From Microbispora hainanensis (GTDB taxonomy: Bacteria > Actinomycetota > Actinomycetes > Streptosporangiales > Streptosporangiaceae): a stretch of 64,000 nucleotides of DNA. The notes under the pieces are model-generated. The model saw only the letters and a program-made list of their open reading frames with translations, was not told the DNA's origin and made no database searches. The stretch is taken from positions 3,286,001 to 3,350,000 of the forward strand of contig NZ_CP108086.1 in the NCBI RefSeq assembly GCF_036186745.1, written 5' to 3'. Below are positions 7,576 to 39,804 of this stretch, in pieces. Every line of letters starts with the position of its first letter. The first letter of the stretch is position 1. Both the position numbers and the translations under genes were made by a program.

Positions 7576-9930
7576 TCATGTCGAGGCGCGGACCACCAGG
7601 CGCGTGGGGAGGACGACAGAGCTGGTGTGGCGGCCGTCGAGGCGCGACAGGAGCAGCCGCGCCAGGGCCAGGGCCTGGTCCGCGGCGGGCACCCGCACGG
7701 TGGTGAGCGCCGGGGTCGTGCACGAGGCGGCGTGGATGTCGCCGAAGCCGACGACCGCCAGGTCTTCCGGCACCCGCAGCCCCCTCTCACGCGCCGCCTC
7801 CATCGCGCCGATCGCCAGCTCGTCGGAGGTCGCGAACACGGCATCCGGGGCCTGGCCGCCGGACAGCAGCTCGCGGGCGGCGGCGGCCCCCGATTCGCCG
7901 TCGAGGCCGGCGAGCGCGATCATCGGCCGCAGCCCGTCCTCGTGGAGCGTCGCCAGGTGCCCGTTGAGCCGGTCCTGTACGGCGACGAGGTCCATCGGGC
8001 CGCAGACCACGCCGATCCGACGGCGGCCCCGGTCGAGCAGGTGCCGGGTGGCCGCCCTCGCGCCGCCCGCGTTGTCCACATCCACGTGCGGCACCAGGGA
8101 TGCGATCGCGGGCTTGCCGAGCAGCACGACCGGCACCCCGGTGCGGGCGAGCCGTTCGGTGAGCGTGTCCGGGCCGTCCGGGGGGACGAGCACGACCCCG
8201 TCGACCTGCCGCGCCTCCACGTGCCGGACGATGCGCCGGTGGCTTTCGGCCGTGTCGGCGAGCATCAGCGTGATCTGCTTGCCTGCCCCTTCGAGGACGC
8301 TGGTGACGTACTGGACGACGGCAGAGATCAGCGCCTCGCCGCCGTGCCGGGGCACCGACAGGACGAGCGCGACCGAGTCGGTCCGCCGGGTGACCAGGCT
8401 CCTGGCGGCGGCGTTGGGCACGTAGCCCAGCTCCTGGACCGCGCGCAGCACGGTGGCCCGCACGTCGGGGCTGACCCGCGCCTCCCCGTTCACCACCCGC
8501 GAGACCGTGGCCCGGGAGACGCCCGCGCGGGCGGCGACGGTTTCGAGCGTGGGCCGCTTCGGCCGCTCCGCCCCGAGCCCGTTGCGCTTGATGACGTCGC
8601 GATACCACAGCGCGCTGTCCTTGAGCAGCCGCCGCTGCGTGGTGAAGTCGACGTGGACGATGCCGAACTTGCGCCGGTAGCCGTCCGCCCATTCGACGCA
8701 GTCGAGCAGCGACCAGAGCAGATAGCCGCGCACCCGGGCGCCCTCGTCGATCGAGGCCCGCAGGGCGCGCAGGTGCTCCTCGATGAAGCTGATCCGGTCG
8801 ACGTCGTGGATGCCGTCGGCGGTGACGACGTCCTCGAAGTCCGCGCCGTTCTCCGTGATCATCAGCTCGGTCTCGGGATACTCCTCCGACAGGCGCCGCA
8901 GGAGCACGGAAAGGGCGCTCGGCATGATGGGCCAGCCCATCGCGGTGACGGCCGTGGGCACGCTGCAGAACAGCACGCCCTCGCTGCCCGGGAAGGCCGG
9001 GTCGGCCGGGGCGCTGGGCTGGGCCTGCACCGCGATGGGCGCGTAGTAGTTGACGCCGAGCAGGTCGATGGGCCGGCCGATGAGGTCGAGGTCTTCGTCG
9101 TGGATGTGGCCGAGCCCGGCGGCCTTCTCGACCAGCGGCAGCAGCTCGGCGGGATAGCGGCCGCGCAGCACCGGCTCGAGGAACTGGCGGTTGTGCAGGG
9201 CGTCGATCCGCGCCACCGCCTCGGCGTCCTCCTCGGGGATGCCGGTGGACATGTCCCCGAGCTGCGCGGGGGTGAGGACGGGCGAGAGGTTGAGCACGAC
9301 GCCGGCCCGCGCGGCGCCCCGCGCGCGCAGCGCCTCCAGGCCAAGCCCGTGCGCGAGCAGCATGTGGTGGGCGCTGACGAAGGCGTCGGCCGCCGACCGC
9401 AGGCCGGGGGCGTGCACTCCCGAGGCGTGGCCGAGAAAGGCGGCGACCCACGGCTCGTTGAACGTGAACCAGGTGTCCACGCGGTCGCCGATCCTGTCGG
9501 ACACGACCTGGGCGTAGTCGGCGAAGCGGCGGGCGGTGTCCCGTGCGGTCCATCCCCCGGCGTCCTGCAGCGCCTGCGGCAGATCCCAGTGATACAGCGT
9601 CGCGTACGGCGCGATGCCCGCCCTGAGCAGCTCGTCCACGAGCCTGTCGTAGAAGTCGAGCCCCGCGCCGTTGACGCGGCCGTGCCCCTCGGGCAGCACG
9701 CGCGGCCAGCTGACCGAGAACCGGTAGGCCGAGAGGCCGAGGTCCTGCATCAGCCGTACGTCCTCCGCATGGCGCGCGTAGTGGTCGCAGGCCGGGTCGC
9801 CGTACGCCCCGCCCGGGAAGGCGTCCCAGATGGAGGGGCCCCGGCCGTCGAGGTCGGTGGCGCCCTCGATCTGGAACGCGGACGTGGACACTCCCCAGAC
9901 GAAACCCTCTGGGAACAACGCGGTACGCAT
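7576..9930 (-). CDS. Fused GH1 beta-glucosidase and LacI-family repressor
   Basis: One 784-residue frame. Residues 1-445 are a complete GH1 glycosidase: start FPEGFVWGVSTSAFQIEG, acid/base Glu159 in TFNEP, nucleophile Glu360 in ITENG, and the aglycone-site YLLWSLLDCVEWADGY. Residues 458-784 are a complete LacI repressor: helix-turn-helix RPTLETVAARAGVSRATVSR with hinge, then a PBP-I effector domain (VDGVVLVPP, DNAGGARAATRHLLDRG, AVVGFGDI). Across the junction (about nucleotides 8565-8600) there is no in-frame ATG, GTG or TTG, so no separate lacI start exists. Such pairs are normally two genes. A lost stop codon or a sequencing indel is the alternative. Probably a cytoplasmic enzyme for beta-glucosides or cello-oligosaccharides that also senses its ligand and binds DNA. 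Confidence 0.85.
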   Translation of the reverse strand: MRTALFPEGFVWGVSTSAFQIEGATDLDGRGPSIWDAFPGGAYGDPACDHYARHAEDVRLMQDLGLSAYRFSVSWPRVLPEGHGRVNGAGLDFYDRLVDELLRAGIAPYATLYHWDLPQALQDAGGWTARDTARRFADYAQVVSDRIGDRVDTWFTFNEPWVAAFLGHASGVHAPGLRSAADAFVSAHHMLLAHGLGLEALRARGAARAGVVLNLSPVLTPAQLGDMSTGIPEEDAEAVARIDALHNRQFLEPVLRGRYPAELLPLVEKAAGLGHIHDEDLDLIGRPIDLLGVNYYAPIAVQAQPSAPADPAFPGSEGVLFCSVPTAVTAMGWPIMPSALSVLLRRLSEEYPETELMITENGADFEDVVTADGIHDVDRISFIEEHLRALRASIDEGARVRGYLLWSLLDCVEWADGYRRKFGIVHVDFTTQRRLLKDSALWYRDVIKRNGLGAERPKRPTLETVAARAGVSRATVSRVVNGEARVSPDVRATVLRAVQELGYVPNAAARSLVTRRTDSVALVLSVPRHGGEALISAVVQYVTSVLEGAGKQITLMLADTAESHRRIVRHVEARQVDGVVLVPPDGPDTLTERLARTGVPVVLLGKPAIASLVPHVDVDNAGGARAATRHLLDRGRRRIGVVCGPMDLVAVQDRLNGHLATLHEDGLRPMIALAGLDGESGAAAARELLSGGQAPDAVFATSDELAIGAMEAARERGLRVPEDLAVVGFGDIHAASCTTPALTTVRVPAADQALALARLLLSRLDGRHTSSVVLPTRLVVRAST

Positions 9931-33120: not shown

Positions 33121-34557
33121 GTGATTCGGTGGAAAGCTGGTCTCCCTAGGACCATGGCCGCTCTAGCCCTCGGCCTGGCCGGTACGGCGTTCGTCGTCGG
33201 TCCCTCGATGACGGCGCAGGCGGAGACCGCGCAAATCGATATGGACTATCGATGCACCCGGGGAGTCGCCGGCTCCACGCCTGTGAATCTGAAAGTGACG
33301 CTCGCTCTGCAGACGGCACTGAAGGTCAGAGAGCCGTTGGATGTCAGATGGGGGCTCGCCTACAAGGACAGCCTGAACACCTTCCTGTCGCCTGGGCTGT
33401 TTCCGGCAGGTGCTCGAGTCACGGCCACTGGCGTGGTCGGCGTCCTTGGCGAGATGTGGGAGGGCGAGCTCAACTCGATCGGCTCGAAGGACGAAGGGGA
33501 ACTCGATAGCGGCGGTGCTCTCGGGTTGCCCGAACTGGTGTCCGGCTCTGTGGGTACGACCGAGCCGGGCGTCTGGGAGATCGAGCCGCGTAACCTCTAC
33601 ATTGACTTCACGCCGCCAGCCTCGGAGGAAGTCGTTAATGATGACGAGGCCGGGATCACCTACGACGCGAACTGGCAGGACTCCAGCGACCGGTTGCCGT
33701 ACTACGGGGACTATCTGAGAGACGTCCACTGGACCAAGGTCAAGGACGCGAGAGTTGACTACAAGTTCACAGGAACGGGGATCGACTTCATCTCCGAGCA
33801 GTCCACTCACGGAGGCCCGGTCCGGTTCTTCGTAGACGGCAAAGCGGGTATCCCCGCAACGGCCGACTCCTCGAAAGAGCGCAACGGCGCCCCGGTGCTG
33901 GTAGAGCACAAGGGCAACCACAACTTGTGGAGCATGCGTGGACTGTCGTACGGGCAGCACACTCTGACGGTGTATAACGGCGACGACACGGAGGCGTATG
34001 TGGATGCCTTCCGAGTCATCACCGAGGAGCTTCGCGACCCGCCGCAGCAGTTTCGGGCGGTATGCAAGCCGGTGAAGACGCCGACGGCGATCCGGGTGGT
34101 TATCGGCGGCGGGACGGGTAGCAGCCCGTCGGCTTCGGTGGAGCCGAGTGAGTCGCCGGACACCTCTGCCAGTCCTTCGGTCAGTCCGACGGACGAGAAC
34201 CCGGGCGAAGAGTCGCAGTCGCCTTCCCCGTCGCCCTCGGCCACGCCTTCGCCTTCTCCGTCGGCCAGTCCGTCGCCGGCTGCCGTGCAGACGCAGCACT
34301 ACATCGTGACGGCGGTGGTGACGCAGGGCAGCCCGTCGCCGACGGCGACGAGAACGGTGACGCTGACCGCGACGCCGAGCGTGGCACAGGTCGCGATCAC
34401 GCCGCAGGGCGGCGCGCAGACCGGTGAGGCTCCGGAGCGCGTGTCGTTCTCGGGCATGCTGCTGATCGGCTCGGGCGGCGCGCTGCTGCTTATCGGCATG
34501 CTCAGCGGTGTGGCGATGCTCCGGCGCAGGGCGGCGCACTCGGGTGAGCGGGGCTGA
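33121..34557 (+). CDS. Secreted Ser/Pro-rich surface protein 1 with TPQGGAQTG sorting-like tail
   Basis: 478 residues, GTG start with GGAG upstream. Signal peptide about 1-39 (cleavage near AQA-ET). A beta-rich domain begins with a YRCT strand. A second beta-sandwich (about 195-305) shows YKFTGTGIDFISE, FFVDGKAG, GLSYGQHTLTVYNG and DAFRV, the layout of carbohydrate-binding-like jelly rolls. A Ser/Pro/Thr linker (about 330-420) could span the wall. The tail is TPQGGAQTG (427-435), a helix, then RRRAAHSGERG: the order of a sortase signal but without LPXTG. A class F sortase gene starts 11 bases after the stop, so it is the likely substrate. Confidence 0.8.
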   Translation: MIRWKAGLPRTMAALALGLAGTAFVVGPSMTAQAETAQIDMDYRCTRGVAGSTPVNLKVTLALQTALKVREPLDVRWGLAYKDSLNTFLSPGLFPAGARVTATGVVGVLGEMWEGELNSIGSKDEGELDSGGALGLPELVSGSVGTTEPGVWEIEPRNLYIDFTPPASEEVVNDDEAGITYDANWQDSSDRLPYYGDYLRDVHWTKVKDARVDYKFTGTGIDFISEQSTHGGPVRFFVDGKAGIPATADSSKERNGAPVLVEHKGNHNLWSMRGLSYGQHTLTVYNGDDTEAYVDAFRVITEELRDPPQQFRAVCKPVKTPTAIRVVIGGGTGSSPSASVEPSESPDTSASPSVSPTDENPGEESQSPSPSPSATPSPSPSASPSPAAVQTQHYIVTAVVTQGSPSPTATRTVTLTATPSVAQVAITPQGGAQTGEAPERVSFSGMLLIGSGGALLLIGMLSGVAMLRRRAAHSGERG

Positions 34558-34568
34558 GGAGGATGACG

Positions 34569-35579
34569 ATGAACGACGGCATTCCTGACGGCGGCGCTCC
34601 CGAGCACGGCAGCGCTCCCCAGCAGGGTGGCGTTCCCGAGCAGGCCGGCAATCCCGCGCAGGGCGCTGCCTCGCAGGGTGGCGTTCCTGCGCAGGCGGAC
34701 GCTCCCTCGCAGGGTGGCGTGCCCGTGCAGAGCGGCGTTCCCGCGGAGGCCGACGCCAAGAAGGCGCGCAAGCCACTGCCCCAGCCGGTGCTCGCGACGC
34801 TGCTCGTGGCCGGGTCGTTCGGCGGCATCGCGGCGGTGATGGCCGGGATGCTCGTCGTGCTGAGCCCCTCGGACCCGCAGGAGAGCGGGCCGGTTCCGGC
34901 CACGGTGACCGTCCGGGACGCGGGCAACGCGGCCTTCCTGCCGCCGACCGTGGGCCCGGGCGGGCCGGGCGTGCCGCTCACGGCGGCCGACCCGACCGCG
35001 CCGCCGCCGGCTCCCGCGCTGCAGCCGATCGCCCCGCTGACCCTCACGAGCGCGGCCTCGTCGTCCTCGAAGCCGCTGTCGTCCTCGTCGTCCGGTGCGA
35101 AGAAGACGACGAGCAAGGCCGCCGCCGGCCGCCCGCTCAAGATCAGCATTCCCGCGATCGGCGTGAAGGCCGCGGTGGGCTCGGTCGGCGTGGACAAGTC
35201 CGGCGTCATCCAGGCGCCCCCGCTGAGCAAGCCCGGCCTGACCGGCTGGTACCGCTACGGACCGGCCCCCGGCGACCAGGGGCCGGCGGTCATCCTCGGA
35301 CACGTGAACACCCGCAAGGGCGCCGCCGTCTTCAGCCGCCTGCGCGAGCTCAAGCGCGGCAACAAGATCGCCGTTCTCCGCGCGGACGGCAAGATGGCGA
35401 TCTTCACGGTGGACGGGATCGAGCAGGTCAGCAAGTCGACCTTCCCGACCAAGCGGGTCTACAGCAACACGATCACGTCGTCGCTGCGGCTGATCACCTG
35501 TGGCGGGGTCTACAACGCCAAGCAGCACCACTACACCGACAACATCATCGTCTACGCGACGCTGACGCAGACCAAGTGA
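34569..35579 (+). CDS. Class F sortase 1
   Basis: 336 residues from ATG at 34569, which sits 6 bases from GAGGAGG; ATG at 34563 is too close to it. A cytoplasmic tail of about 60 residues rich in QGGVP/Q-type repeats is followed by one membrane helix (about 72-98) and a Ser/Ala linker. The sortase barrel begins KISIPAIGVKAAVGSVGVD. Catalytic His245 is in ILGHVNTRKG and Cys311 in RLITCGGVYN. No Arg is found in the stretch after the Cys where it is usually placed (YNAKQHHYTDN). Transpeptidase acting on the outer membrane face, most likely on the protein encoded just upstream. Confidence 0.88.
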   Translation: MNDGIPDGGAPEHGSAPQQGGVPEQAGNPAQGAASQGGVPAQADAPSQGGVPVQSGVPAEADAKKARKPLPQPVLATLLVAGSFGGIAAVMAGMLVVLSPSDPQESGPVPATVTVRDAGNAAFLPPTVGPGGPGVPLTAADPTAPPPAPALQPIAPLTLTSAASSSSKPLSSSSSGAKKTTSKAAAGRPLKISIPAIGVKAAVGSVGVDKSGVIQAPPLSKPGLTGWYRYGPAPGDQGPAVILGHVNTRKGAAVFSRLRELKRGNKIAVLRADGKMAIFTVDGIEQVSKSTFPTKRVYSNTITSSLRLITCGGVYNAKQHHYTDNIIVYATLTQTK

Positions 35580-35584
35580 TCACG

Positions 35585-35612
35585 GAGGTGATCAGCCCAG
35601 GCTGATCACCTC
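35585..35612. terminator. Perfect 12-bp hairpin overlapping the end of the convergent gene
   Basis: 35585-35596 pairs with 35601-35612, loop CCAG. It serves as terminator of sortase 1 but also contains the last codons and stop of the minus-strand gene ending at 35592. Confidence 0.8.
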
Positions 35613-36371
35613 TTCGCCCTCCCGCTCCTCACGCTCGGGCGGATCGTGGGGCCTTCGCCGTACGACCGGCCGGGCCGCGCGCTGGACCAGCAGCGTGCCC
35701 GCCACCGCCGCCACCGCGACGGCCACCAGCGCGTACGGCTGACGCCACGGCGAGGAGTCGCCGCCGGCCGCGGCCACCTGCGTCGGCGGGATGGCCCGGA
35801 CCACCTGAGGGGCGGGAGCCTGCTGGGAGGCACCGGCCGGCTGCGCGGACGCTGCGGGCATCGCCGTCGGCGGGCGGTTGGGAACGACGTTCGTCGCCTT
35901 CCAGGGGAACCCGGGCGGCTTCACCGGACCCCAATAATCCTTGATCACGATGCCGACGGGCACCGGGAACGGCGGCGGAGCCGTCTTCAGCCCGCCCGGC
36001 ACCGTGAGCGTCCCGATCTCGTACGTCGCGAATATGCCCTGCACACCCTCCACCCGCCATCGTCCGGCAGGCACGGTGATGGACGTGGCGTAGTGCGCGG
36101 GTTCCGGCAGCGGCGTCCCGTCGAACGTCAGGGTCGTGCCGTCCTTTCCGGTCAGACGCAGGCCGATCGGTCCGATGTCGCCGGGGCCGTCGTATGGGTG
36201 GGTGCCGTGCTGAAGCACCCAGAAGCCCACCGTGTAGGAGACATCGGGCCGCACCGTGGCGGGAAGCGGGTCGAGCTCGGTCACGGCCCAGCCGCCTGCC
36301 CGCGCGTGCGCGGGCAGGGCCGGAACGAGGATCGCCGCCATGGCCGCGAGAGCCACGAGCAGTCTTCTCAT
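35592..36371 (-). CDS. Secreted, C-terminally membrane-anchored beta-rich protein, unknown function
   Basis: 259 residues from ATG at 36371, preceded by GGAGGTG; the frame extends five codons further up without support. Signal peptide about 1-22 (LLVALAAMAAILVPALPAHA). A beta-sandwich-like domain (about 25-140) contains WAVTELDPLPATVRPDVSY, FWVLQHGTHPYDG and IFATYEIGTLTVPGGL. A Pro/Ala/Gln linker, a membrane helix (about 215-235) and a charged tail with RRRPHDPPEREEREGEE follow. Unlike its neighbours it has no GGAxTG motif, so it is membrane-held rather than sorted. Similar YtkA/CopC-like proteins occur in actinomycetes; metal binding is not evident. Confidence 0.65.
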   Translation of the reverse strand: MRRLLVALAAMAAILVPALPAHARAGGWAVTELDPLPATVRPDVSYTVGFWVLQHGTHPYDGPGDIGPIGLRLTGKDGTTLTFDGTPLPEPAHYATSITVPAGRWRVEGVQGIFATYEIGTLTVPGGLKTAPPPFPVPVGIVIKDYWGPVKPPGFPWKATNVVPNRPPTAMPAASAQPAGASQQAPAPQVVRAIPPTQVAAAGGDSSPWRQPYALVAVAVAAVAGTLLVQRAARPVVRRRPHDPPEREEREGEEVISLG

Positions 36372-36520
36372 GGTCAACACCTCCACCCTCCCTACTGTTG
36401 CGAGGCGATGAAGGTTCCCTGGGAATTTCCTGACATAGGCCGCCCGCCGGTTATGTCAATGGTCAACTCCTGGGAGACTGTTCGCTACGTGTACGTGACT
36501 GAGGTGGCAGGAGAGACGTC

Positions 36521-37801
36521 GTGCCCGACCCCAGTGCCCGGCGCAGGAGTGCCCAGCGTCGCATCGCGGCCCGTTCGGCGGCGGGAGCGGCGGTCGCGCT
36601 GGCCCTGATGACGTGGCCGGTGCTCGCCGAGACCAAAACCACGACGGTGCTGTATTCGTGCACTCCGGCCGGTGCCTCCGCCGCCGCGACCTACCCGGTG
36701 AACGTGACCCTGGTCGCGCCCGACGACCCGGTGGTGAGCAGCGCGGCGACCCTGACCTGGCAGATCGCTCCCGCGACGCCGTCTGAGGGCCAGAGCGCGA
36801 TGGTGGCGCCGGCGACGGGCATCGCGGCGAACGACGTCATGATCGCCGAGGGCCTGGTGGAGGTGACCGGCGCTCCCGTCGTGAGCGAGCCCGCGGACGC
36901 GTCGCCCAGCCCCAGCCCGAGTGCCAGTCCCAGCGCCAGTCCGAGCGCCGGCCCCTCGGACTCCCCGACGCCGAGCCCGTCGCCCTCCCCTTCCGTCTCC
37001 CCATCCGTCTCTCCCTCGGCTTCTCCTTCGGCATCGCCGTCGCCTTCCCCTGACGGCGACGAGTCGGCGACGGACGCCTCCCCGAGCCCGTCACCCTCCG
37101 CCAGTGCGACTCCGCCCGGCGAGGAGGGCGGCTCGACCACGGATGACACGGAGAACGGCGCCGAAACGGAGAACGGCACGGGGGAGAGCCCTGCGGCCAT
37201 CACGCTGAGCCCGTCCGCTTCTACGGTGCTCGCGTCGTCACTCTCGCCGTCGGCCACGCTGACGCCGATCCCCCAGCTGCTCGTCACGCTTACGCCGACG
37301 GCGACGGGCACGGTCGGAGTCGCGGCCGGGAACTTCACGCTGAAGCTGCGCGCCGCCGGGGACACCACAGGCGAGGGTGACGCGCTCTACACGTGCACGC
37401 TACCGGCGTCCGCGAGCAGGGCGTCGCTCGCGTTCGCCGTCGCCTCGTCCTCGTCCGCCTCGCCGTCTCCCTCCGCTTCGCCGTCCCCTTCGCCGAGCCC
37501 GTCCGACAGCGACGCGAGCGCCTCGCCCAGCCCCAGCGCCTCGGCATCGCCGACCCCGAGCCCGAGCCCGAGCATCACGGCGACCCGCACGGTCACGGCG
37601 ACCGCGACGGCCTCCCGCCCGGCGACCAAGCAGATCAAGACGACCCCGCTCGGCGGCGCGCAGACCGGGGGCGGAGGCGACGCGGGCCCGGACGCCCGGC
37701 TCGTCGTGCTCACCGGCCTGGCGCTGATGGCCGCCGCGGCGGCCGGAGGGCTGCTGCTGCGGCGGTTCGGCCTCAACCCCGGTTCGTACGGCAGGCATTA
37801 G
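36521..37801 (+). CDS. Secreted Ser/Pro-rich surface protein 2 with TPLGGAQTG sorting-like tail
   Basis: 426 residues, GTG start with AGGAGAG upstream. Long signal peptide with basic N-region (ARRRSAQRR) and cleavage near LAE. The mature domain opens with VLYSCTP and closes much later with ALYTCTLP (about residue 285), suggesting a disulfide that ties the first and last strands. A roughly 100-residue Ser/Pro/Asp/Glu stretch (about 125-225) is inserted within that domain. A second Ser/Pro linker leads to TPLGGAQTG (375-383), GGGDAGPDAR, a helix and an RR tail. Likely substrate of a sortase in this island, displayed on the wall. Confidence 0.78.
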   Translation: MPDPSARRRSAQRRIAARSAAGAAVALALMTWPVLAETKTTTVLYSCTPAGASAAATYPVNVTLVAPDDPVVSSAATLTWQIAPATPSEGQSAMVAPATGIAANDVMIAEGLVEVTGAPVVSEPADASPSPSPSASPSASPSAGPSDSPTPSPSPSPSVSPSVSPSASPSASPSPSPDGDESATDASPSPSPSASATPPGEEGGSTTDDTENGAETENGTGESPAAITLSPSASTVLASSLSPSATLTPIPQLLVTLTPTATGTVGVAAGNFTLKLRAAGDTTGEGDALYTCTLPASASRASLAFAVASSSSASPSPSASPSPSPSPSDSDASASPSPSASASPTPSPSPSITATRTVTATATASRPATKQIKTTPLGGAQTGGGGDAGPDARLVVLTGLALMAAAAAGGLLLRRFGLNPGSYGRH

Positions 37802-37957
37802 CGTCCGGCTGACGCGCACAGGTGGAGAACGGGAGAATGTTTGAGCAAGTGGAGACAGTCTTGGGGTTTTTGTCCGTAAGATCTCTACCTGACCGTGACC
37901 GTACGCTGGAATGCTGGTACGCCTGTTGACTGCGAGCATCGAAGTGGAGAGACGTCA

Positions 37958-38887
37958 GTGCTGAAGTCAAAGGCGCGGGGCCGTGTCGCCGGAAGGGCCG
38001 CCGCGGCCGGAGTGGTCAGCGCGGGCCTTCTCCTGGGCCTGAGCGCGCTCGGCGCGCACGCCGACACGAAGACCGTGACGTACAGCTGCACTCCGAACGT
38101 GGGTGGCGCTGCGGTGACGCACGATTTCATGGTGACGCTCACTGCCAGCACCTCGGCGGTGTCCGGCACTCAGTACACCGCGACCCTGAGCGTCCAGCCC
38201 GTCACCACGTCGGCGTTCCCCGCGCCGGTGGAGATCGCGAGCGGCGCGACGATCGAGCTCCAGCCCACCGTGTCGGCGTCGGCGCTGCCGGCCGGCATGA
38301 CCGCGGGCGTGTCCACACCCTCGCCGACCGGCACGCCGCTGACCGCGGTCGTCGCGTCGGGAGGGGCGATGCCCGCTCTTCCCACGGCCACGATGACCGT
38401 CACACCGCAAAGCGGGGCCACCTCCGTCGTGCTGACGGCGAAGGACTTCAAGATCAGTATGATCGCGCCCGCCGGCACGGGCACGACCACCACGACGCCC
38501 ACCGCGCTCTACAACTGCGTGGTCGCCACCACGGGCGCCAACACGGCGCCCGCCGTCGCGACGATCGCGGTGGCGAGCCCCTCGGCGTCCCCGAGCGCGA
38601 GTGCCAGTCCCAGCGCCAGCCCGAGTCCTTCCGCGAGCGCCTCGCCCAGGCCCAGTAGCACCAGGACGGTGTACGAGACGGTCTTCGCGTCGCCGTCGCC
38701 GGTCAAGACCAAGAAGTCGAAGTCCGCCCAGATCGAGAACACGCCCGGGGGCGGCGCGGCCACCGGCGGTGGAGGCGACGCCGGCCCCGACGCGCGGCTC
38801 TTCGTCCTGACCGGCACCGCGCTCATGCTGGCGGCGGGTGCGGGCGGGCTCGTGCTCCGGGCCCGGCGACGTCCGGTGAGGCAGTAG
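37958..38887 (+). CDS. Secreted surface protein 3 with TPGGGAATG sorting-like tail
   Basis: 309 residues. GTG at 37958 is chosen: GGAGAGA upstream matches the leader of surface protein 2, and a signal peptide follows at once (cleavage near AHA-DT). The mature domain (about 35-210) opens VTYSCTP and closes ALYNCVV, the same Cys-bracketed plan as protein 2. A short Ser/Pro linker leads to TPGGGAATG (262-270), then GGGDAGPDAR identical to protein 2, a helix and RARRRPVRQ. Sortase 2 starts 8 bases downstream, so coexpression and processing are likely. Proteins 2 and 3 look like paralogues from tandem duplication. Confidence 0.8.
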   Translation: MLKSKARGRVAGRAAAAGVVSAGLLLGLSALGAHADTKTVTYSCTPNVGGAAVTHDFMVTLTASTSAVSGTQYTATLSVQPVTTSAFPAPVEIASGATIELQPTVSASALPAGMTAGVSTPSPTGTPLTAVVASGGAMPALPTATMTVTPQSGATSVVLTAKDFKISMIAPAGTGTTTTTPTALYNCVVATTGANTAPAVATIAVASPSASPSASASPSASPSPSASASPRPSSTRTVYETVFASPSPVKTKKSKSAQIENTPGGGAATGGGGDAGPDARLFVLTGTALMLAAGAGGLVLRARRRPVRQ

Positions 38888-38895
38888 GACGAGTC

Positions 38896-39804
38896 ATGAC
38901 CACCCCGCCACCTGGACAGTACCCGCCGGGCCAGCCGTACGGCGTGCCTCTCGGGCCGGGCGGGCAGGGCTACCCACAGCCGGTTTACGGCCAGCCGGTC
39001 TTCCAGCCGGTGATGCTGCCCCAGATGCAGCCCGTGCAGGCGCCGCCCCCGCCGCCGGAGGAGAAGCCTCCCGGCAGCGGGGCGGAGGCCGTACGGCGGC
39101 TGCTGATCACGGCGGCCATCGTGGGCCTGGTCATCATGATCGTGGGTGTGGTGATCATGGTGAACAACCCGGACGAGTACGCCGCGTCGGAGCGTTCGAC
39201 GCTGAAGCGCGTGGCGCAGGACGGGCTCGCCCCCTCCGTGGGGCCGGGCGGAGTCGGGCAGCCGCTGACGCAGGCGGTCGCCACCGCGCCGCCGCCGGTT
39301 CCGAACATCCCGGCGGCTCCGGCGATGCAGCCGTCCACGCCCAAGCGCCTGGTCATCCCCAAGATCGGCGTCAACGCGCCGATCAAGTCGGTCGGCCTCG
39401 ATCGTTCAGGCGCGATCCAGACGCCGCCGATCAGCAACTCGAACCTGGTCGGCTGGTATCGCGGGGGCCCGACGGCGGGTGAGGCGGGCCCTGCCGTCAT
39501 GCTCGGCCACAAGGACACCACCACGCGCAGCGCCGTCTTCAGCCGCCTGCACGAGCTGGCGTACGGCGACAAGATCGAGGTGTATCGCCTCGACGGGACC
39601 GTGGCCATCTTCACCGTGGGCGGCATCGAGCAGGCGGACAAGCAGACGTTCCCCACCAACCGGGTGTACGGCCACGCCGACAACGCCGAGCTCAGGCTGA
39701 TCACCTGTGGCGGCACCTACAACCACACAACTGGCCACTATGTCGACAATGTCATCGTCTATGCCACGATGACCGGCACGCGCCTGGCGAAAAGAAAGTC
39801 CTGA
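38896..39804 (+). CDS. Class F sortase 2
   Basis: 302 residues, ATG 8 bases after surface protein 3. Pro/Gln/Gly-rich cytoplasmic tail (about 1-58), membrane helix (about 70-92), linker, then the sortase barrel from LVIPKIGVNAPIKSVGLD. Catalytic His205 in MLGHKDTTTRS and Cys271 in LITCGGTYN. As in sortase 1, the segment after the Cys (YNHTTGHYVDN) lacks an Arg. The two sortases share GxIQxPP, GWYRxGP, FSRLxEL and IEQxxKxTFPT blocks, so they are paralogues. Probable enzyme for proteins 2 and 3. Confidence 0.9.
   Translation: MTTPPPGQYPPGQPYGVPLGPGGQGYPQPVYGQPVFQPVMLPQMQPVQAPPPPPEEKPPGSGAEAVRRLLITAAIVGLVIMIVGVVIMVNNPDEYAASERSTLKRVAQDGLAPSVGPGGVGQPLTQAVATAPPPVPNIPAAPAMQPSTPKRLVIPKIGVNAPIKSVGLDRSGAIQTPPISNSNLVGWYRGGPTAGEAGPAVMLGHKDTTTRSAVFSRLHELAYGDKIEVYRLDGTVAIFTVGGIEQADKQTFPTNRVYGHADNAELRLITCGGTYNHTTGHYVDNVIVYATMTGTRLAKRKS

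Follow-up and report, generated by a model that had tools for sequence, protein, structure and literature searches.

Among the closest known systems is that of the actinobacterial class E enzyme SrtE1 of Streptomyces coelicolor, which acts on an LAXTG signal (PMC5148588). The roles of class F enzymes are called unknown in the available portions of two studies (PMC13251363, PMC6998099), the second of which describes the replacement of an Arg by Asn in actinobacterial class F sortases, at a position where Arg is elsewhere called universal in native sortases (PMC8361268). Here we describe a sortase island at positions 33121-39804 of a stretch of 64,000 nucleotides from Microbispora hainanensis, which is referred to in its entirety as the window. 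For this island, an original prediction made from the sequence alone had proposed a dedicated sortase-substrate system with a recognition sequence of its own, GGA-x-TG. In our analysis, the recognition of a signal in the encoded secreted proteins by class F enzymes is strongly supported by linkage, and we consider it likely that the region is a wall-anchoring island in which each of two class F sortases forms an operon-like pair with a substrate of its own, the third substrate belonging to the B type. The sequence GGA-x-TG represents a local version of a more general class F signal, for which a curated NCBIfam tail model, GVDTG_CTERM (NF058571), already exists. What our analysis adds is a quantified linkage that is independent of class E, the GA-x-TG variant of the Streptosporangiaceae, two co-segregating pairs and the placing of the structure 5UUS near class E. 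In the open-access literature searched, we found no publication of the motif.

The island and its class F sortases

The island contains three open reading frames (ORFs) encoding secreted proteins and two class F sortases, all on the + strand, with the sortase labels A and B assigned by position:

33121-34557 (+): substrate of pair A, ORF of 478 residues, secreted protein
34399-34425 (+): sorting motif TPQGGAQTG, followed by EAPER; rank 3 in the genome profile search, alignment of 45 relatives
34563-35579 (+): class F sortase A, 338 residues; NF033748 195.3 bits, Pfam Sortase 78.4 bits
36521-37801 (+): third substrate, ORF of 426 residues with a tail of the pair-B type (TGGGGDAGPDAR); rank 1 in the genome profile search
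37643-37669 (+): sorting motif TPLGGAQTG; sequence reading and genome profile search
37895-38887 (+): substrate of pair B, ORF of 330 residues as listed
38741-38767 (+): sorting motif TPGGGAATG, followed by GGGDAGPDAR; genome profile search, alignment of 77 relatives
38896-39804 (+): class F sortase B, 302 residues; NF033748 204 bits, with His205, Cys271 and Asn285

The descriptive part of the original prediction held throughout. Both sortases exceed the NF033748 cut-off of 166 bits and the three predicted tails are present, each with its motif followed by a hydrophobic helix and a basic tail, the latter being weakly basic in the third substrate (RRFGLNPGSYGRH). Reading of the tails confirmed that none of the three contains an L[PA]xTG pentapeptide (LPxTG or LAxTG). 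Likewise, the gaps of 11 and 8 bases between substrate and sortase were found in pairs A and B, the former provided that sortase A starts at the second ATG (34569), a probable start since it suits a GGAGG just upstream. Judged from relatives, the pair B substrate probably starts with the GTG at 37958. By sequence reading and a hydropathy filter, all three proteins display the general layout of sortase substrates, consisting of signal peptide, motif, helix and basic tail. In the register of the known pentapeptides, the last five residues of the motif, GAQTG or GAATG, equal LAXTG with Gly replacing Leu.

The identity of the enzymes is reflected in their catalytic residues, which we compared in 134 class F sortases from the window and 119 fetched regions, hand-picked among the matches listed. 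His is found in 132 and Cys in 133 of these proteins, whereas the third position is occupied by Asn in 131 and Ser in three cases and in none by Arg. Divergent class F-like sortases (95-150 bits, own profile) mostly contain Asn as well, where readable, and several of them have neighbours with GVPAG, NGVDTG or similar motifs. An AlphaFold model of sortase B (predicted local distance difference test, pLDDT, 92.7; predicted TM-score, pTM, 0.89) displays a sortase fold, with best Foldseek matches to SrtA of Actinomyces oris and a class E sortase of Thermobifida. In this model, Cys ends one strand and Asn starts the last strand, from which, together with PMC6998099, Asn285 appears to occupy the position of the Arg in other classes. 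A solved structure of the NF033748 family was not found, the best profile matches in the PDB being of class A, C and D-type (E 1.6e-4 and worse).

In the mechanism that we propose, the secreted proteins would be exported and held in the membrane by their C-terminal helix and basic tail, where a class F sortase would recognise the sequence P-x-G-[GA]-[VAP]-x-[TA]-G just ahead of the helix. Its Cys would cut the bond between Thr (or Ala) and Gly, and the acyl-enzyme would hand the protein to a wall precursor, resulting in its display on the hyphal or spore surface, with each sortase presumably serving its neighbour. Cleavage between Thr and Gly, which the original prediction had regarded as possible, is likely by analogy.

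The lack of Arg in all 134 enzymes, which matches the replacement described in PMC6998099 of a residue held to be universal in PMC8361268, would also be compatible with class F sortases binding the signal without ordinary wall anchoring, either to release their substrates by hydrolysis or to join one substrate to another. The fact that no catalytic domain was detected in the substrates and that pair B combines two substrates sharing a single type of tail points in the same direction. Conversely, His and Cys are retained, a sortase fold is predicted and the long Ser/Pro/Thr stalks resemble those of wall-anchored proteins, and we thus regard such an activity as unlikely.

Linkage of the signal to class F and its general form

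The assignment of the signal to class F is based on its distribution in 148 genomes of the class, in which we defined class F-positive genomes by a sortase at E<=1e-30. Tails matching NF058571 (E<=1e-4) were found in 45 of 75 class F-positive but in none of 73 class F-negative genomes (Fisher p 3.6e-18). Such tails were present in 42 of 66 genomes with both class F and class E and in 3 of 9 with class F but without class E, whereas they were absent from all 46 class E-positive, class F-negative genomes. At the level of individual matches, 54 of 67 are separated by no more than 3 kb from a class F sortase among the sortase matches listed, and 6 further ones (G065, G153, G171, G180:C5, G151, G117) adjoin class F sortases outside that list. 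One match (G149) occupies the end of a contig and a class F sortase its beginning, the two being adjacent only if the contig is circular. The remaining 6 of the 67 are without a shown adjacent class F sortase; they include two at contig edges (both in G108), one in G139:C24 and three partial matches without motif (G102, G180:C91, G110:C3).

The tails of the window share the layout and register of GVDTG_CTERM, as judged by the model's name and layout, but contain GA[QA]TG instead of GVDTG. Compared to its cut-off of 29, the window proteins score 23.6 (36521-37801) and 14.9 (37895-38887), with no match for 33121-34557, when searched as proteins, and 28.7 (reaching 29 with neighbours; 36521-37801), 19.6 and 15.8 bits in a search of the genome. 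All 38 of 38 class F-linked tails scanned match the model, with E up to 10 and a best value of 1.8e-10. Beside their class F sortases, the window tails show the pattern x-[VAP]-x-[TA]-G before helix and basic tail.

These genome counts bear on the question whether the proteins are anchored instead by the single class E sortase that accompanies four class F sortases in this genome of 8.8 Mb, with the class F neighbours acting elsewhere. GAQTG and GAATG differ from LAXTG at the first residue only, and in Actinoplanes missouriensis phenotypes were described for the class E enzyme only, in the available portion of PMC13251363. Yet the occurrence of GVDTG-type tails in three of the nine genomes with class F alone and in none of the 46 with class E alone leads us to reject this as the main account. 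Moreover, the class E gene of this genome (at 7454097) adjoins, on the opposite strand, a gene for a protein ending in LPFTG, and the S4 pocket of class E enzymes is described as non-polar, to accommodate Leu (PMC5148588). Anchoring by class E is in our view quite improbable.

The motif itself was quantified beside the 134 class F sortases by counting motif-bearing ORFs within 1.5 kb. A strict form, P-x-G-[GASHT]-[AVPMT]-x-[TA]-G, adjoins 78 of these enzymes compared to a mean of 1.2 and a maximum of 5 in 200 composition-preserving shuffles, whereas a looser core motif adjoins 90 (shuffle mean 12.3, maximum 24). The enrichment beside class F sortases, on which the original prediction had made itself dependent, is thus pronounced. 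In contrast, GGA-x-TG adjoins only 22 of the 134 (shuffle mean 0.6, maximum 4) and is therefore too narrow: the predicted sequence marks a real signal, whose general form is P-x-G-[GA]-[VAP]-x-[TA]-G-x-G. LPxTG and LAxTG were found beside none of the 134, and none of these motifs occurs in 32 similarly built ORFs from 400 kb of sequence away from class F sortases, which constitute a small control. A motif that arose as by-product of Gly/Pro/Thr-rich linkers in high-GC genomes, as might be suspected from the Gly-rich tails of low complexity, is rejected by these shuffles and the control, and also by the alignment of the motif in 45 and 77 relatives with variable flanking residues, and is barely credible.

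Since the strict pattern was written after the tails had been viewed, motif finding was repeated without a preset pattern, using expectation-maximisation with one neighbour per sortase and separate sets for the family of the window (n=40) and for other families (n=69). Both sets converged on the same general form, with P(0.91)-x-G(0.72)-G(0.58)/A(0.32)-A(0.51)/P(0.24)/V(0.15)-x-T(0.72)/A(0.20)-G(0.89) in the former and P(0.76)-x-G(0.86)-G(0.68)/A(0.13)-V(0.61)/P(0.17)/A(0.10)-x-T(0.61)/A(0.26)-G(0.94)-x-G(0.82) in the latter. The log-likelihoods were 316.9 for the own family (shuffles 113-127) and 442.0 for the others (shuffles 128-151), scores of shuffled sets amounting to about one third or less of the real ones. 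Leu was found at the fourth place in 1 of the 109 best sites, which looks spurious. In the LPXTG register, the P4 Leu would thus be replaced mainly by Gly or Ala, with Val, Ala or Pro at P3, and the upstream Pro and the downstream Gly-rich stretch are probably part of the signal.

Tails from other families also identify the window proteins within their genome. A profile was built from 38 such tails (out of 54), which had been selected by the pattern P.G...G, and its P, G and G columns are for that reason invariant. In a six-frame search of the genome, with scoring of 150 out of 537 first-look candidates, the three window proteins take ranks 1, 2 and 3 (E 5.5e-7, 2.7e-5 and 5.7e-5), while the match at rank 4 (6.7e-5) covers no more than the portion of the model that comprises helix and tail. 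Among 80 named Streptosporangiaceae-type loci around sortase B, which were examined with a pattern looser than the strict motif, a motif-bearing neighbour is kept in 79, the exception (L297) beginning 99 bases from a contig end; one of the 149 tails in this set (L307, minus strand) is clearly spurious. Together, linkage, profile ranks and pattern-free motif finding support the dedicated class F system without LPXTG or LAXTG that had originally been proposed.

Several observations weigh against this explanation. Under the filters used, 44 of the 134 class F sortases are without a core-motif neighbour, 18 of them without any candidate neighbour and others with variants such as GGIDTG, APNTG or VRGGLGGS. 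No convincing neighbour was seen for the fourth class F enzyme encoded in this genome (1547962). In addition, the Cutibacterium acnes enzyme SrtF, which is called class F, accepts LPQTG (PMC7451113), and a quadruple class F deletion in A. missouriensis had no phenotype in the traits tested, as far as the available portion of PMC13251363 describes them.

Near the 1547962 sortase, a small ORF on the opposite strand contains PPIGGVAAG (rank 9, 0.02 in the profile search) but was not counted as substrate because the search found it in this genome only and because seven congener loci taken as orthologous (L034, L039, L040, L041, L044, L045, L048) are without a motif neighbour. A further whole-genome match, at 1952325 (38-tail profile, E 0.9), has no motif neighbour by the filter used. 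Rank 14 (0.049) is taken by a protein encoded beside the class F sortase at 3404488 (L065:5237-5881). It contains PTRAPHAGGGG, which gives APHAG when read as a pentapeptide and is conserved among congeners (L068, L071) as well as other relatives (L076, L120). The variant VRGGLGGS or VRGGIGGS is conserved in place of the TG core at six loci (L081, L134, L138, L141, L144, L145), in most cases in opposite orientation to the class F sortase and within one family that has 4-7 class F sortases per genome, and is perhaps another sub-signal. Finally, two tandem class F-like sortases (L121:8157-8924 and 8954-9676), of another family in the same order, have no motif-bearing neighbour by the filter.

Two co-segregating enzyme-substrate pairs

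Beyond the original prediction, the island holds two distinct co-segregating enzyme-substrate pairs plus an extra substrate of the B type. In a FastTree phylogeny that includes the window, the sortases in first position (A, 65 proteins) and those in second position (B, 81 proteins) separate into mutually exclusive groups with support of 0.65 and 0.88, the B clade being in part a product of retrieval because the 80 loci were found using sortase B. The substrates are divided in the same way: the sequence GPD between motif and helix is present in 77 of 77 substrates directly before sortase B and in 0 of 45 before sortase A, while TGE is found in 38 of the latter, both tail labels having been selected after inspection of the tails. 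Among substrates that are not tied to a sortase by adjacency, such as the middle protein of the window, 23 of 26 carry GPD. The core is therefore common to both groups, and the sequence behind the presumed cleavage site varies with the enzyme. An orthologue of the pair A substrate followed by sortase A is found at 45 of the 80 named loci, with labels assigned in this analysis.

The pair A substrate is built of an N-terminal beta-sandwich region that includes a jelly roll like that of carbohydrate-binding modules (CBMs), a Ser/Pro/Thr-rich stalk and the sorting signal. Residues 29-330 are predicted by AlphaFold as all beta with a pLDDT of 94.9. The second half of this modelled region is similar to modules of the types CBM36 and CBM6 (target TM 0.60 and 0.50; E ~1e-3), but TM-scores in the structure search were low overall, also for the matches top-ranked by E-value; together with visual comparison, these weak matches faintly suggest that it may be a CBM.

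Between sortase A and the third substrate, another gene is encoded on the opposite strand:

35592-36386 (-): secreted protein lacking a sorting motif, with helix and charged tail at its C-terminus

ORFs resembling it occupy the equivalent place in other Microbispora loci (L069, L072, L073).

Versions of the tag adjoin over half of the related sortases that were examined in other actinobacteria, and the family-wide signal turns the question of class F substrates into a peptide-cleavage test with named candidates. It could allow annotators to find class F substrates in genomes and might provide an orthogonal pair for sortase-based protein joining.

Relation to characterised sortases

The enzyme whose class name the island sortases share differs from them in its sequence relationships. 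The structure 5UUS, which we take to be that of C. acnes SrtF, ranks first in the PDB for this genome's class E enzyme (5e-29) and is not one of the 23 PDB entries that the class F profile matches at E values up to 10. Although it is presented as a class F structure in print (PMC8361268), 5UUS thus appears by sequence to group with class E sortases, and C. acnes SrtF, which has in common with the island enzymes the sortase fold and the class name, therefore says little about the NF033748 family. If the 5UUS-type enzyme is indeed nearer to class E, that family would be without a characterised member that we could find. A bolder interpretation, which we put forward tentatively and consider somewhat doubtful, is that NF033748 defines a separate recognition world, with Asn in place of Arg, loss of the P4 Leu and an extended Pro/Gly-rich signal, where the LPXTG-active enzyme printed as class F would belong closer to class E and the two island pairs would be orthogonal by virtue of TGE versus TGGGG..GPDxR.

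A second comparison concerns A. missouriensis, where AMIS_11010 and AMIS_36440 are secreted proteins encoded beside srtF1 and srtF4 that contain a helix and a basic tail (PMC13251363). In the available portion of this 2026 study they are set aside for want of a known pentapeptide (PMC13251363); we predict that both carry the motif described here.

At the late catalytic position, the class E sortase of this genome contains Arg (QRLIV). In its neighbour at ~7.45 Mb (L066:3811-5769 (-), beside the sortase gene L066:4972-5715 (+)), LPFTG is followed by a helix and an RRRR tail; the listed start of this ORF overlaps the sortase and is probably too early. The class E/LAXTG system of SrtE1 resembles that of the island in its actinobacterial origin and in a pentapeptide that contains Thr-Gly and an Ala at P3, LAXTG and GAXTG differing by one residue (PMC5148588). 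The two differ in that the island signal has no Leu at P4 but an upstream Pro and a downstream Gly stretch, that class F enzymes contain Asn instead of Arg, and that the GVDTG-type signal is associated, at the level of genomes, with class F rather than class E.

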